A DNA stretch of 27,175 bases from a virus: the IMG/VR virus record IMGVR_UViG_3300037485_001753, positions 1 to 27,175 of that record. One strand, written 5' to 3'. The translations under genes were made by a program, and so were the position numbers. Position 1 is the stretch's first letter, and the number at the start of each line of letters is the position of its first letter. This document shows positions 16,265 to 26,242 of the stretch, piece by piece. Under the pieces are notes generated by a model, which saw only the letters and a list, made by a program, of their open reading frames with translations, ran no database searches and had not been told where the DNA came from.

Positions 16265-16663
16265 ATGCGCAAGTTCATCATCATCCTTCTGGCCTTCGCC
16301 GCGACGTTCAGCGCCCAGGCCGGCACGGTCTTCGACCGCTCCACCAACGCCACGGCCGCTGCCACCGGCATCTGCACCATCACGCCCAAAGCCAGCTACG
16401 CCGGCATGGAGCTCAAGAAGGTGTGGGTCGAAAAGGCCGCGGCCACCAACCAGTCCTTCACGGTCTACCGCGTGGTCGAGGCGGGCGCGTACACGCAGTC
16501 CGTCGCCACCGTCGCGATCACGACCTCGACCACCGGCTCGGGAGTCCCCGCGCAATACGCGGGCCTCAAGTCCGGCGAGTACTGGCTGGTCAAATCGCTC
16601 GGCGGCATCGCATCCAGCAACGCCGTGGTCCTGCTCGACTACGAAGTCCAGACGCACGATTAA
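16265..16663 (+). CDS. Secreted-type beta protein next to the major capsid gene
   Basis: This 132-aa protein starts with a textbook Sec signal: MRK, a hydrophobic core (FIIILLAFAATF), and a likely cleavage site after SAQA. The mature part is Thr/Ala-rich and mostly beta (FDRSTNATAAATGICTI, AITTSTTGSGVPAQYAG), like a small capsid or fibre beta domain. AAAGGG precedes the ATG at 16265; an upstream in-frame ATG has no site. It shares its leader design with the capsid gene, so it is probably highly expressed. A signal peptide here is unexpected for a virion protein. Its role is unknown. Confidence 0.75.
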   Translation: MRKFIIILLAFAATFSAQAGTVFDRSTNATAAATGICTITPKASYAGMELKKVWVEKAAATNQSFTVYRVVEAGAYTQSVATVAITTSTTGSGVPAQYAGLKSGEYWLVKSLGGIASSNAVVLLDYEVQTHD

Positions 16664-20793: not shown

Positions 20794-21317
20794 TCTTCCT
20801 ACAGAAAATATCCGGCTTTCGCTCAGGCGTCATCAACGCCCTGATCGACTGCGTCCGGATGCAGTGTCCGGTCGCCGGTCCCGGAATGCTCTTATCCGAA
20901 GGCCCCGGCGGCACCGTGATCTCGCTGGCCAGGCCATCGGCATCGGCCAGTCAAGTCTCCACGCCCTGGGCGCCATCGATCAGCGACAGCACCCTCACCA
21001 TAACCGACCCCATCTTATTCCGCTCGCCCAAATACACCATCCCCGCCACCCTTACCTACAGCCTCGCCGCCAGCGACGGCGCGGGCGACTACTACTGCGG
21101 CGTCAAGATTAGCGTGATCGACGGCACCATCGACAGCACGCTACTCATTTCCAAGACCCTCGCCAACGTCGTCTATACCAGCCTCGCCGCCGCCAACGCC
21201 GACGCCGACTACATGCGCCTACTCGTCTGCATAGTCACCTACGACTCCACCGCCGCCACCTTCACACTCAAGCTCCGCTGCATCTCATCCGTCCCCGAGT
21301 TGGGCCTTTACGCATGA
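20790..21317 (+). CDS. Hypothetical tail-tip protein
   Basis: This 175-aa protein begins MIFLQKISGFRSGVINALID; the ATG overlaps the preceding stop (ATGA). It has a short helical N-terminus, then Ser/Thr/Ala-rich beta strands (SDSTLTITDPILFRSPKY, TYSLAASDGAGDYYCGVKIS, STAATFTLKLRCISS). The fold looks like a beta-sandwich of a tail-associated protein. Its stop overlaps the next start. No family is recognised. Confidence 0.55.
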   Translation: MIFLQKISGFRSGVINALIDCVRMQCPVAGPGMLLSEGPGGTVISLARPSASASQVSTPWAPSISDSTLTITDPILFRSPKYTIPATLTYSLAASDGAGDYYCGVKISVIDGTIDSTLLISKTLANVVYTSLAAANADADYMRLLVCIVTYDSTAATFTLKLRCISSVPELGLYA

Positions 21318-23071
21318 CCACCCGCACCTACACAACCGGCCTGATCGTCTCTGCCGCGCTCGCCATCACCGGCGTGCTCTGGCACCAGCCCCGCTCGCCC
21401 TACGTCGCCGGCGAAGACATTGCCGCCATCCTAGCCGACACCCTCACAGTACTCAAGATCGCCTCCGAAGACACGAGCACCAACGCTGTCGCCCTGATTT
21501 CCCGCCGCTGGTACTGGCAGGATATGTCCGGCGACAACTCATACGGGGCATGGGTGGCAGAACCCGAGATCATATCCGCCACGTCGTTCACCGTTACGGC
21601 CTTTCGCGCTTCCGCGTCGCTCCGGGACGCATCGATCGCGCTGCATCACAGCGTGAGTGGGTGGTGGTGGTACAGCACCGGTGTCCGCTACTTCCTTGAC
21701 CGGCGCACCTTCGACGGATCGGCGGGCCAGTTCGACTTCGCCGTTGCGCCCTCCTGGGGCACAAATCCGGTTTACGCAATTGCAAATTCTTGGAATTTCG
21801 GCCGCTCCAACATCGTCTTCAACGCCAACTTGATCGACGTCGACGTCAATGCCGTCGCACTCAAAGACCGCATCGTCACCGGCACCAATCGATACGGATT
21901 CAGCGGCGCACCTGCAGTGAGCACATTAGCCGCCGCGTCGATCTTCGCTGGCGCCCAAAACTACTCCGCGTTTACCAACCGCCTAGCCGGCGAGGAGTCG
22001 TGGTGGACCTACGCAGGGATCTCGCCTGTGTCCTACCTTCTAGAGCCAGTCGAGGTCTTACGCGCAAATGCCGGGCAGGGTGTGTGTCTCTCGTCAGACT
22101 GGATCGATCGCACAGAATACGACGCATCCACGTGGCCCTACAAGGCGACAGACCACATGTGGTTTGACGATAACGTAGAGTCCTATCGCCCCGGCGTCAA
22201 CATCACCCCCTTCATTTCCAAAGCCAGCCTTGACGTTTTCCGCCGAGTCCTCACCAACATGACCCGCACAGTCGAGTTCAACCCCGCATGCTCCGTCATC
22301 GCCACGAGCTACTCCTATAGCGGAACCAACGCCATGACCACCGCCACCAACGCCATCGACGCAACGATGCCCATTACATTCTTTGGTCACAACGAATTGA
22401 TTTCTAGTTGGGTGGCAATTTCCGGGTCATCCACCAACCACTACACGAACAACGTCTTTTCAGCATCGTGGAGCGATTTATCAATCACCCCTACCTCTAT
22501 CGCCAGCAACTGCTTTGCCTCCGGCATGGTCGATCGCGTCCGCCTTTACGCAGTCACCGAGGCATCGACTCCTGGGATCTGGTATCCACTCGACTGGATA
22601 TACAATTACGATGTCTACTTCTCCCTCTCCAACCTCAACTCTTACGTTGGGGCCAGTCTATCCGCCAACCAGACCGAGACCTACGGCTACCCCATCACAC
22701 ACTGCAGCATTCCCGACATCCATTTCCCCCGATCCGCTCCGACCCAGCCCAAAGATTGGCTTATGACGTGCGGATACGTGTACGAAACAGTCACCCCTTC
22801 CTACTTCTCCACCAACCAGATCTGGAACCTCATCGGCGACGTATCCCACCCAGCCACCCCGCCCACTTTCAGCCTGGCCGCCACATCGCACGCTCGCACA
22901 GACCTACTTACTCCCACTCAAGCCATCGACGTAGAGGGCTACGAAGGCTCCACCTATCGCCACCTCACCGCCTCCTGGCGCTACCACACCATGCGCCTAT
23001 CCAAGCTCATGCTCATCGTCGACTGGTCCATCACCCTCAAATCCTCCGGAGGCTACACCAATGCGCCCTAG
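21314..23071 (+). CDS. Large beta-rich tail protein with N-terminal hydrophobic segment
   Basis: This 585-aa protein is rich in Ser, Thr, Trp, Tyr and Asn, with many short strand-turn patterns (SGWWWYSTGVRYFLDRRTF, EESWWTYAGISPVSYLL, TPGIWYPLDWIYNYDVYFS). That fits a large surface-exposed beta structure, such as a receptor-binding or tail-tip protein. The N-terminus has a basic/polar start and a hydrophobic core (GLIVSAALAITGVLWH) that could be a signal peptide or an anchor. It lies just before the adhesin gene and overlaps it by 11 nt. The start is in an ATGA overlap. No catalytic motif is visible. Confidence 0.55.
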   Translation: MTTRTYTTGLIVSAALAITGVLWHQPRSPYVAGEDIAAILADTLTVLKIASEDTSTNAVALISRRWYWQDMSGDNSYGAWVAEPEIISATSFTVTAFRASASLRDASIALHHSVSGWWWYSTGVRYFLDRRTFDGSAGQFDFAVAPSWGTNPVYAIANSWNFGRSNIVFNANLIDVDVNAVALKDRIVTGTNRYGFSGAPAVSTLAAASIFAGAQNYSAFTNRLAGEESWWTYAGISPVSYLLEPVEVLRANAGQGVCLSSDWIDRTEYDASTWPYKATDHMWFDDNVESYRPGVNITPFISKASLDVFRRVLTNMTRTVEFNPACSVIATSYSYSGTNAMTTATNAIDATMPITFFGHNELISSWVAISGSSTNHYTNNVFSASWSDLSITPTSIASNCFASGMVDRVRLYAVTEASTPGIWYPLDWIYNYDVYFSLSNLNSYVGASLSANQTETYGYPITHCSIPDIHFPRSAPTQPKDWLMTCGYVYETVTPSYFSTNQIWNLIGDVSHPATPPTFSLAATSHARTDLLTPTQAIDVEGYEGSTYRHLTASWRYHTMRLSKLMLIVDWSITLKSSGGYTNAP

Positions 23072-24830
23072 AAATCTCATTACCGCGTGCGCCGTTATCG
23101 GCGCGTTCTCCGCCTATGCCGGCCCCGTCACCTGCCGCTGGACCGCCGAGACCTCCAAGCCCGCCGCGCAGGTCATCGACGCCTTTCAGGGCGAGACCAT
23201 TCACATCGAGCCTACACTCGTCAGCTACGGCACCGCCATCTCCGTCACCAACTCCACCCTCACCCTGTACTGGCAGACCAACGGCATGGGCGCCGCCTGG
23301 TGGAGCACGCCCGCCGCAGCCGACTCCAGCGTCACCGGCCGCGTCCGCGCCGTCTTCGCCCCCACCAACGACATCGGCGCCGCCCAATACACGTTCTACA
23401 TCCAGGCCACAGACTCATCCGCCTCCAACTTCCGCGCCTACGGCCTGATCCGGATGCGCTCATCCCCTGGCTACGCCCCCACCGCAGCCCCCGCCCCCGC
23501 CTATCAATGGGTATCCCCATCCGACATGCAAGCCGCGATCGATGCCGCCACCAATCCTATCCCCACTTGGATCAACGCAGCCACGAACCCGATCCCCGCG
23601 CAGACGGCCGCTGCGATCAACGCCGCGACCAACCCGATCCCTTCCGCCATTGCGGCCGCGACCAACCCCGTCCCTGGCTGGATCGCGGCCGCTGTCGGAT
23701 TACCCCGTTATCAGTATTCACACAGCCCCACGCAATACGTGGGACCGAATGAAGCCTATTTTGCGTGCTACAGTTCAACTACGCAGCAGGTGTTCATCCC
23801 GAGCAGTGTGGGTATAGGTCAGTCATTTTTTATCAGCGGAATATACACGAATGGGTGGATCATTAAGCCAGATAATACCAACTCCGTTATGGTTGATGAT
23901 TTGTCGTCCACAAACTATATATCTGTCACAGGCAATCACCCATCATCTATTTTTGTGTGCGCGTCAAATGTCTATTACGCGATTAATCATTGGGGATCGT
24001 ATAAAGATGCGCCAAGTTATATTACTGGGTCTGGCGGTGATGCCACAAACTTTTACGGGGACTGGGCGGCACATGTGTATCTAAAGAGTGGAACCTTTAG
24101 ATCCACCACGCCAGGGACTGCCTATCTGTTTTTAGTAGCCGGTGGTGGTGCTGGCGCTAGTGGCGCTGGTGGTGGTGGTGGTGCGGGTGGGTATGTTTAT
24201 GGCGTGACAAATATCGCAGCAAACAGAGATTACAATGTAATTGTTGGCGGTGGTGGAAAAGGCAACGCGACCGGATTAAACAGTGTTGGCGGAAACGGTA
24301 CTAACTCGTCATTCGGTGCATTTGTGGCAGTCGGCGGCGGTGGTGGTGCGTCGTGGCAATTTGCGTCAGCCGCACCGAGTGGTGGCTCTGGTGGCGGCGG
24401 CGGAGGTTGGAGTGCCGGTTTTACTACTGCGGGCAACGGAACAGTTGGCCAGGGATACGTGGGTGGAAACAACGCGGGAAGAAACGCAGCCCCATATCCG
24501 TCTGGTGGCGGTGGTGGTGGCGGTGGCCAAGGCCAAAGCGCATCCGCAGCGTCGGTTTCCGGAAATGGTGGAGTCGGCATATCCTCAACATGTGCAACCG
24601 GTACAACAAATCTATTTGGCGGGGGCGGGGGGGGTGGAAATTATAGTTCCGGGACCGCAGGAACAGCGTCGCATGGCGGCGGTGCCGGAGGTGTTCACGC
24701 CGAGACATCAACCGCAGGAACGGATGGGACGGGTGGTGGCAGCGGGGGCGCAGGTGACGTAGGCGCCTCTGCTAATGGCGGGTCTGGTGTAGTTGTGATT
24801 TATTACAAGGTTCGAGGAGATTACGAATGA
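23061..24830 (+). CDS. Glycine-rich tail adhesin with N-terminal signal peptide
   Basis: This 589-aa protein has four parts. Residues 1-20 form a Sec-like signal ending in SAYA. A beta domain follows to about 145. Four ATNPIP/ATNPVP repeats (~161-206) may form a stalk. After a middle beta part, residues ~355-585 are dominated by runs of Gly with short motifs such as YLFLVAGGGAGASG and DYNVIVGGGGKGN. This C-terminal type is known from phage tail-tip adhesins, where polyglycine-II helices form a receptor-binding sandwich (T4-like gp38). It should determine host range. GC drops sharply from about 23697. GGAGG precedes the ATG; the next gene is coupled. Confidence 0.75.
   Translation: MRPRNLITACAVIGAFSAYAGPVTCRWTAETSKPAAQVIDAFQGETIHIEPTLVSYGTAISVTNSTLTLYWQTNGMGAAWWSTPAAADSSVTGRVRAVFAPTNDIGAAQYTFYIQATDSSASNFRAYGLIRMRSSPGYAPTAAPAPAYQWVSPSDMQAAIDAATNPIPTWINAATNPIPAQTAAAINAATNPIPSAIAAATNPVPGWIAAAVGLPRYQYSHSPTQYVGPNEAYFACYSSTTQQVFIPSSVGIGQSFFISGIYTNGWIIKPDNTNSVMVDDLSSTNYISVTGNHPSSIFVCASNVYYAINHWGSYKDAPSYITGSGGDATNFYGDWAAHVYLKSGTFRSTTPGTAYLFLVAGGGAGASGAGGGGGAGGYVYGVTNIAANRDYNVIVGGGGKGNATGLNSVGGNGTNSSFGAFVAVGGGGGASWQFASAAPSGGSGGGGGGWSAGFTTAGNGTVGQGYVGGNNAGRNAAPYPSGGGGGGGGQGQSASAASVSGNGGVGISSTCATGTTNLFGGGGGGGNYSSGTAGTASHGGGAGGVHAETSTAGTDGTGGGSGGAGDVGASANGGSGVVVIYYKVRGDYE
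23080..23104 (+). repeat. TTAC-hairpin element, copy 4 (inside a signal-peptide region)
   Basis: TTAC (23080-23083), 5 nt, GCGCCG (23089-23094) pairing with CGGCGC (23099-23104), loop TTAT. It is within codons of the adhesin signal peptide (ITACAVIGA). Confidence 0.55.
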
Positions 24831-25186
24831 AGTTTATAGTAACTGTTTTATGCGCAGCGTTGTCTACTGTTTTATGCACAATTTCCCATGCGCAGGACAT
24901 TGAAGTTGAACAAACCCTCTTGCCCGTCAGTAAATTCGTTGACTGGCAAGCATCTACCGGCACAAACAAGGTCTATCGAACTTCAGCAAAAGCAACACGC
25001 CTCGTTATCTATTTAGGCACAAATAACATGCCCGTATTGGTGACAGCAGCGATGAACAATGGGTCAATTCTTAGTGTGTCAAATAACGTGGCTCCGTTCA
25101 CAAACCGAGTTATTGCAACTTCAATCTCGGCAATCCTACGCACAACTGTAACTAAGGGCACAGTTATCCACCCGCAGGACAATTAA
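24827..25186 (+). CDS. Small exported protein coupled to the adhesin gene
   Basis: This 119-aa protein has a Sec signal (MKF, hydrophobic core IVTVLCAALSTVLCTI, likely cut after SHA). The mature part is Thr/Asn/Val-rich beta (KATRLVIYLGTNNMPVLV, RVIATSISAILRTTVTKGT). It overlaps the adhesin stop (ATGA) with GAGGAG before the ATG, and shares the low-GC composition of the adhesin 3' half, so the two probably arrived together. A chaperone, cap or immunity partner for the adhesin is plausible but unproven. Confidence 0.65.
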   Translation: MKFIVTVLCAALSTVLCTISHAQDIEVEQTLLPVSKFVDWQASTGTNKVYRTSAKATRLVIYLGTNNMPVLVTAAMNNGSILSVSNNVAPFTNRVIATSISAILRTTVTKGTVIHPQDN

Positions 25187-25238
25187 AGCCCATTTTTTTC
25201 AATCCGACCGGCAAACTTCTAAACCAGAAAGGCACGCC

Positions 25239-25706
25239 ATGAGCAGCATCCTTGGTCTTATCAGCTCCGCACTGTCCCTCGCCCGCGAGCTCCTGTATCG
25301 CCTCCGCCGCCTCCGCTCCACCCCGTTGCAGCGCGCCGAGCGGGCGATCCACGACGCCCGCGCCGCCTCCGCCCAGGGCGACACTGCCAAGGTCAACGGC
25401 CAAGTCGAGCGCGATCGCGTCCGCCGCAGCCTCGGCGTCATGGTCATCCTTCTCCTCCTCTCCGGCTGCGGCTGCGCCACCATCCGCGCGATCCTCACGC
25501 CCGACCCCGAAGCCACTCTCCCGGATCTGGTCCCCGCCGTCGTCGTGATCCCCTCCGACCGCTATCAATATCCCATGGTCTCCACCAACGGCGTCCCCGG
25601 CTGGTTCGTCCCAGCCGCCGTCCATGCCGAGTACTGCGAGGCCCTCGCCCTTGTCGCCTACTACCGCACCCTTCTCAAACCCACCACCCAGGAGCCTACG
25701 CCATGA
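25239..25706 (+). CDS. Spanin-like protein with an internal lipobox
   Basis: This 155-aa protein has a basic amphipathic N-terminal half (LARELLYRLRRLRSTPLQRA, then a coiled-coil-like AIHDARAASAQGDTAKVNGQ). A hydrophobic segment VMVILLLLSGCGC at residues 67-79 ends in a perfect lipobox (L-S-G-C77), followed by a Pro-rich periplasmic-type tail. Lipobox plus proline resembles o-spanins (Rz1). An internal ATG at 25440 could give the lipoprotein alone, and the long form could be the i-spanin-like partner. AGAAAGG precedes the first ATG. Neighbouring genes (exported protein, one-TM protein) fit a lysis cassette. Confidence 0.5.
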   Translation: MSSILGLISSALSLARELLYRLRRLRSTPLQRAERAIHDARAASAQGDTAKVNGQVERDRVRRSLGVMVILLLLSGCGCATIRAILTPDPEATLPDLVPAVVVIPSDRYQYPMVSTNGVPGWFVPAAVHAEYCEALALVAYYRTLLKPTTQEPTP

Positions 25707-26242
25707 GCACACGCCTATCCCTCGCCGCAGCCCTTATTACCGCGAGCGCCATTATTGGCGCTGCCCAATCCACCGACTTCTCCGGCCGCCTCTCCGTCTC
25801 CCCCGACTGGGCCCACTCCAAGACCTCCGGCGTCTCCACCGTCCAGGAGCGCTTTTCCCGCATCCTCGACCAGACCCACACCTACGGCACCAATGCCTCC
25901 CAAATGACCGCCGTGATCCAGCTCTCTGGCACCCTCACCAACAGCCAGACCACCGCCGTCGCCCTCACCACCGGCGTCACCGACAGCTTCGGGGACACCA
26001 TCCAGTTCACCCGCCTGTCCGTCCTAGCCTTCAAGGCCTCCGCCAGCAACCTCGGCGCCATCAACCTAGGCACCATCTCCACCAACTGGCTATCCGCCAC
26101 CAACACCGTCGCCATCATTGCACCCGGAGGCCTGATCCTACTCACAGCCCCCGACGCCACCGGCTACCCAGCCAGCCCTCTCTCCATCTCAAACCCCACC
26201 ACAAACCCCGCCGCCTACACCCTCACAGTAGGCGGCTCGTAA
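25703..26242 (+). CDS. Exported beta-rich protein, unknown
   Basis: This 179-aa protein starts with a Sec-type signal (MSTRL, then SLAAALITASAIIGAAQS) and continues with a Thr/Ser/Asn-rich beta region (TAVIQLSGTLTNSQTTAVAL, TGVTDSFGDTIQFTRLSVLA, TGYPASPLSISNPTTNPAAY) ending TLTVGGS. Such endings are typical of phage beta-sandwich decoration or fibre proteins. CAGGAG precedes the ATG, which overlaps the previous stop. The signal-peptide codons contain a copy of the TTAC-hairpin. Function unknown. Confidence 0.6.
   Translation: MSTRLSLAAALITASAIIGAAQSTDFSGRLSVSPDWAHSKTSGVSTVQERFSRILDQTHTYGTNASQMTAVIQLSGTLTNSQTTAVALTTGVTDSFGDTIQFTRLSVLAFKASASNLGAINLGTISTNWLSATNTVAIIAPGGLILLTAPDATGYPASPLSISNPTTNPAAYTLTVGGS
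25737..25762 (+). repeat. TTAC-hairpin element, copy 5 (inside a signal-peptide region)
   Basis: TTAC (25737-25740), 4 nt, AGCGCCA (25745-25751) pairing perfectly with TGGCGCT (25756-25762), loop TTAT. The codons encode ITASAIIGA, matching the ITACAVIGA of copy 4. Confidence 0.55.

Follow-up and report, generated by a model that had tools for sequence, protein, structure and literature searches.

The adhesin gene of a Mu-like phage is compositionally split, and replacement of its distal tip is the best reading of the DNA that we analyzed, because tip exchanges are visible in sister prophages and several members of the adhesin family have GC3 change points at codons 188–210, that is, at the end of the linker. 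The stretch examined (hereafter the window) is a 27,175-base virus contig representing a partial phage genome. Its minus strand carries the Mu-like genes for a MuB-like ATPase and a transposase, and these are followed by Gp27-like, terminase, portal, protease, major capsid, and head–tail adaptor genes. The window would represent a Mu-like transposable tailed phage or a prophage fragment, and its host would be a Kiritimatiellota/Verrucomicrobiota-type bacterium. The family to which the adhesin belongs was collected from IMG/VR contigs, from MAGs labelled Kiritimatiellae or Verrucomicrobia, and from 21 of 388 genomes of that phylum. The account as a whole, in which such a phage carries a three-layered adhesin whose earlier tip was replaced by a low-GC cassette consisting of a new tip and a small gene, appears probable to us.

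Composition break in the adhesin gene and its downstream neighbor

The adhesin, a chimeric tail-fibre–like protein of 589 aa with the N-domain of the family and a Gly_rich_2 tip, is encoded by a single unbroken frame (23061–24830, plus strand) of two-part composition. GC3 was 0.85 in codons 1–212, 0.44 in the tip (23691–24830, plus strand), 0.44 in the next gene (24827–25186), and again 0.85 in the gene starting at 25239. The third-position change point fell at codon 210 (nt ~23691; top candidates, codons 204–215), with a log-likelihood gain of 59 compared with a maximum of 11.2 over 500 shuffles. GC per 300 bp decreased from 0.68–0.69 (23100–23600) to 0.43–0.44 (23700–24100) and returned to 0.68 by 25200–25500. 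The right-hand nucleotide change point was located at ~25262, with GC recovering before ~25265, so that this boundary (25187–25265, plus strand) runs from the intergenic gap into the very start of the next gene. That gene (25239–25706, plus strand) has phage composition again and encodes a hydrophobic/lipobox segment; it gave a faint Rz-like spanin match (E 0.09). The two change points are the biggest GC drop and the biggest GC rise across the entire 27 kb.

The sequence-only reading had placed a shift near residue 213, just after a set of ATNPIP repeats, and had extended the AT-richer stretch through the tip and the next gene (23697–25186); both the position and the extent proved accurate. 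Sliding GC and codon-usage plots, which had been suggested as a check, revealed a break at both ends and the poorest codon fit within the cassette: when 30 segments were scored against the phage's own usage, the two cassette genes ranked lowest, with mean log relative codon use at −0.52 and −0.48 (+0.2 to +0.7 in the other plus-strand genes). In the glycine-rich part of the tip, raw GC climbs back to ~0.6 because glycine is encoded by GGN, while GC3 stays at 0.41; GC3 is thus the measure of the continuing foreign character. The G–C skew flips in the same part, and we set this flip aside as an independent sign because it partly reflects glycine codons.

Predicted anchor, linker, and probably exchanged tip

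The part following the N-terminal signal peptide (23127–23510, plus strand) is conserved throughout the family. An alignment of the N-terminal ~150 residues of 13 members showed an invariant YWQTNGM, which in the window is found as LYWQTNGM at about 23265–23291. The AlphaFold model of this domain had a mean pLDDT of 82, and a Foldseek search of the PDB with it returned matches with E 8e-8 to 4e-5, probability 1.00, and TM about 0.5–0.6; the top 18 all came from phage necks or baseplates (TP901-1 BppU, 80alpha, Sf14, and Bas63). Matches in BFVD were BppU(-domain), baseplate, and tailspike proteins. The curated BppU profile gave no Pfam match to the window N-domain and only chance-level matches to other members. 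Since its best structural matches are phage neck/baseplate Ig-like, BppU, and tailspike proteins, the predicted domain most likely serves to attach the protein to the virion.

The domain is followed by a linker of phage-like GC (23511–23690, plus strand) containing four (A)ATNP(I/V)P repeats at 23548–23690, directly before the composition break. These repeats had been proposed to act as the recombination hinge that allows the tip to be exchanged. Switch points in sister loci do lie in or beside the linker; however, the units are divergent as DNA (64–76% alike) and were absent from all other loci that we retrieved. The proposal fits in position, and a recombination role for the repeats is only suggested: they may be a plain fibre linker lying at the boundary by chance.

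The tip consists of a homolog-free stretch and a glycine-rich domain (PF21722, residues 344–583; 60.5 bits, above the Pfam gathering cut-off of 24.3; E 3e-16), and the tip also matched phrog_2295 (1e-36). A single-sequence structure model of the tip reached a pLDDT of only 31. Among the 37 family members, N-domains matched each other in 633 of 666 pairs, and tips in 58 of 666. Comparing the two ends separately, we found the N-domain in all 36 relatives of the window adhesin and the window tip in none of them, nor did IMG/VR scans with this tip yield relatives. The sequence-only reading would have been refuted by relatives sharing the entire gene with conservation unbroken at this point; none of these 36 members was of that kind. 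The best-scoring sequence relatives of the tip were host secreted proteins and not phage fibres: its PF21722 part aligned full-length, at 39–45% identity, with domains of Kiritimatiellota secreted proteins. Two such host loci (L102 and L103) encode secreted proteins of >3000 aa in which this glycine-rich domain occurs two to six times.

The second cassette gene (24827–25186, plus strand) overlaps the adhesin stop codon through ATGA and encodes a 119-aa orphan protein with a predicted signal peptide. The cassette extends past the adhesin end into this gene, which is coupled to the adhesin in translation, a feature that the sequence-only reading had not anticipated. No relative was found in IMG/VR or in the 388 genomes of the phylum, although the empty phylum search proves little by itself. 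The protein had no PHROG match, only sub-threshold matches to unrelated Pfam families, and no homology to known tail fibre assembly chaperones (TFA). In the relatives, the next gene usually overlaps or abuts the adhesin gene and bears a predicted signal peptide, and it belongs to other families. The 119-aa protein may pair with the tip or act as its chaperone.

Exchange was directly visible in sister prophages. In two G295 prophages (L078/L079), the N-domain and C-terminal DNA were 95.3% and 95.2% identical, respectively, while the middle segments were unrelated (288 vs 600 bp, 43%) and had a GC of 0.52/0.49 compared with 0.67 in the core; in one of the two, the adhesin is directly followed by an additional small gene with a predicted signal peptide. 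The adhesin tip of L079 (8632–9231) contains two modules in tandem, both of which close with an ALGLARL/SLGLARL motif. Conversely, the N-domains of two G390 loci (L076/L090) were only 39% identical, whereas their tips were 92% identical over 140 aa. In two G366 loci (L077/L082), a 153-bp linker block of 93.5% identity lies between divergent flanks, and the tips differ. Together with the split in conservation between N-domain and tip, these replacements bear out the view that the distal end is a separate, exchangeable module. They were observed in sister prophages and not in the window lineage, for which we found no close sibling: IMG/VR scans with three flanking genes, the tip, and the 119-aa gene gave none, and a protein search of INPHARED returned no matches.

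The break might have arisen in other ways. In Mu, the switched unit (the G segment, Sv-U/Sv′-U′) comprises the fibre C-terminus and the next gene, which is the extent of the cassette in this Mu-like phage, and the cassette could accordingly have an alternative counterpart with which an invertase switches it. However, the ~27 kb window contains no second copy of the tip, no convincing inverted repeats were present at the cassette boundaries, and no invertase was found among the scanned ORFs of this partial genome, which makes such switching extremely unlikely. The tip was also rejected as a target of a diversity-generating retroelement, as the window has no near-copy of it and no RT among the scanned ORFs. 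Alternatively, tips could be intrinsically AT-richer owing to their amino-acid content or to relaxed selection, with no exchange involved. Tip GC3 was indeed below core GC3 in 27 of 35 members (Wilcoxon p 1.5e-4). Against this, amino-acid content has little influence on GC3; the step of 0.39 in the window is the largest when set against 34 other members (next, 0.21; z = 4.3); the low GC3 extends into a separate downstream gene; and the physical replacement of tips in sister loci contradicts intrinsic AT-richness without exchange. We thus regard this explanation as very unlikely and favor tip replacement. In the mechanism that we propose, the N-terminus of the adhesin would be exported and would carry the BppU/neck-type Ig anchor, the repeats would form a linker, and the glycine-rich tip would bind the host surface. 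The tip and the coupled small exported gene would have been acquired as one low-GC cassette in place of an earlier tip, by ordinary recombination (homologous or illegitimate) with its left junction in the linker and its right junction in the intergenic gap, so that the anchor was kept and the receptor changed. Receptor binding by the tip, co-transfer in a single event, and the recombination route are what we infer here.

Predicted signal peptides and the possible site of adhesin function

A rule-based call assigned a Sec-type signal peptide to the window adhesin (MRPRNLITACAVIGAFSAYA followed by GPVT; 23061–23126, plus strand). Across the family, the simple rule flagged 28 of 37 adhesins and three further cases were judged by eye, giving 31 of 37; the remaining six comprise one adhesin fused to an upstream ORF and a single well-supported clade of five without a signal peptide (L092–L096), in which the next genes mostly keep one. 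In the fused case (L015, 1693–2574), an upstream structural ORF, which we read as tail-tube–like, is joined in frame to the adhesin N-domain in place of the signal peptide; L015 is probably a decaying prophage because the fused frame soon stops. The gene just after the adhesin in L012 starts with a twin-arginine–like motif (MRRRAFIAGGACAAAGAAAAG), which suggests, as far as the motif can tell, that its product is exported by Tat and not by Sec.

Within the window, the same rule left the terminase, portal, protease, capsid, and adaptor proteins unflagged. A small signal-peptide protein (MRKFIIILLAFAATFSAQA...) is encoded directly behind the major capsid gene (16265–16663), and L086 has a similar signal-bearing gene in the same position. 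Two further genes with signal peptides flank the adhesin (21314–23071 and 25703–26242), and the adhesin therefore lies within a run of proteins predicted to be exported. Because tail assembly is normally cytoplasmic, signal peptides on a virion fibre are unexpected and hard to reconcile with such assembly. The presence of signal peptides on both cassette products, and the closer resemblance of the tip to host secreted proteins than to the phage sequences found, had not been anticipated by the earlier reading. The searchable literature, limited to open-access papers, provided no precedent for exported tail fibres, and gp38, once considered as such, was dropped since it has no signal peptide.

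The adhesin could instead be an exported host-surface adhesin or a superinfection-exclusion factor, with a tip derived from a chromosomal surface protein, and not a virion fibre. The signal peptides in 31 of 37 adhesins and in most of the next genes, as well as the whole-length alignment of the tip domain with Kiritimatiellota secreted protein domains, are consistent with this possibility. However, the anchoring domain specifically matches phage neck/baseplate proteins, several family adhesins have collagen-like fibre repeats, and one adhesin clade lacks a signal peptide. In addition, many family adhesins are located inside a late structural operon with a conserved late-gene neighborhood, often immediately downstream of a putative conserved tail-tube ORF. 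The names tail tube and gpF-like for these neighbors are our own reading, and PHROGs gave no match for them except a weak one to a tape-measure protein. On balance, we consider a non-virion surface protein possible but rather unlikely. As a tentative and rather doubtful proposal, this Mu-like phage lineage may export its fibres and their companions by Sec, so that outside the cytoplasm the fibres fold and are either loaded on virions or displayed on the host against re-adsorption, with tips derived from host-surface proteins. Should the signal peptides prove genuine, the use of an exported fibre by a tailed phage becomes a testable question.

Relation to known systems

The exchange of receptor-binding modules in general is well known. 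New here are the adhesin family, the host group, the systematic occurrence of predicted signal peptides, and the relatedness of the tip to secreted proteins of the host. The family defines an anchor with swappable tips for phages of a phylum with almost no phage biology, and it supplies natural before/after pairs. Like the Mu G segment, the window belongs to a Mu-like phage in which the exchanged unit is the fibre C-terminus plus the next gene; unlike it, the ~27 kb yielded neither the invertase and inverted repeats nor an alternative copy. The predicted fold of the window N-domain is common to BppU N-terminal and neck-passage Ig-like domains (TP901-1, 80alpha, and Lactococcus NPS), and BppU-type adsorption proteins likewise combine an N-terminal anchor with a variable distal part. 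Sequence identity to these domains is only about 5–18%, with no Pfam match, and the window family, unlike BppU-type proteins, usually begins with a signal peptide. The Kiritimatiellota PF21722 proteins share the domain family of the tip; they are chromosomal, several copies often occur in one very large protein, and no BppU-like anchor was seen in them.

S16/PP01 gp38 and Pam3 gp24, like the window tip, have glycine-rich tips with GGGGxGG motifs. The tip of Pam3 gp24 has been proposed to contact the receptor, and its assembly depends on a dedicated chaperone, gp25 (PMC9608196). A profile of the glycine-rich domains matched the Pam3 fibre only weakly (E 0.018), the Pam3 chaperone has no sequence counterpart in the window, and the signal peptide of the 119-aa gene product distinguishes the cassette from the gp24/gp25 pair. 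In the Alteromonas phages A5, V22, and P24, modules of a tail fibre and its chaperone move between unrelated phages (PMC10579305). The window differs from these in that the fibre gene itself is interrupted by the break and the adjacent small gene is an orphan, and it resembles them in that a receptor-binding protein and an adjacent small gene would move as one.
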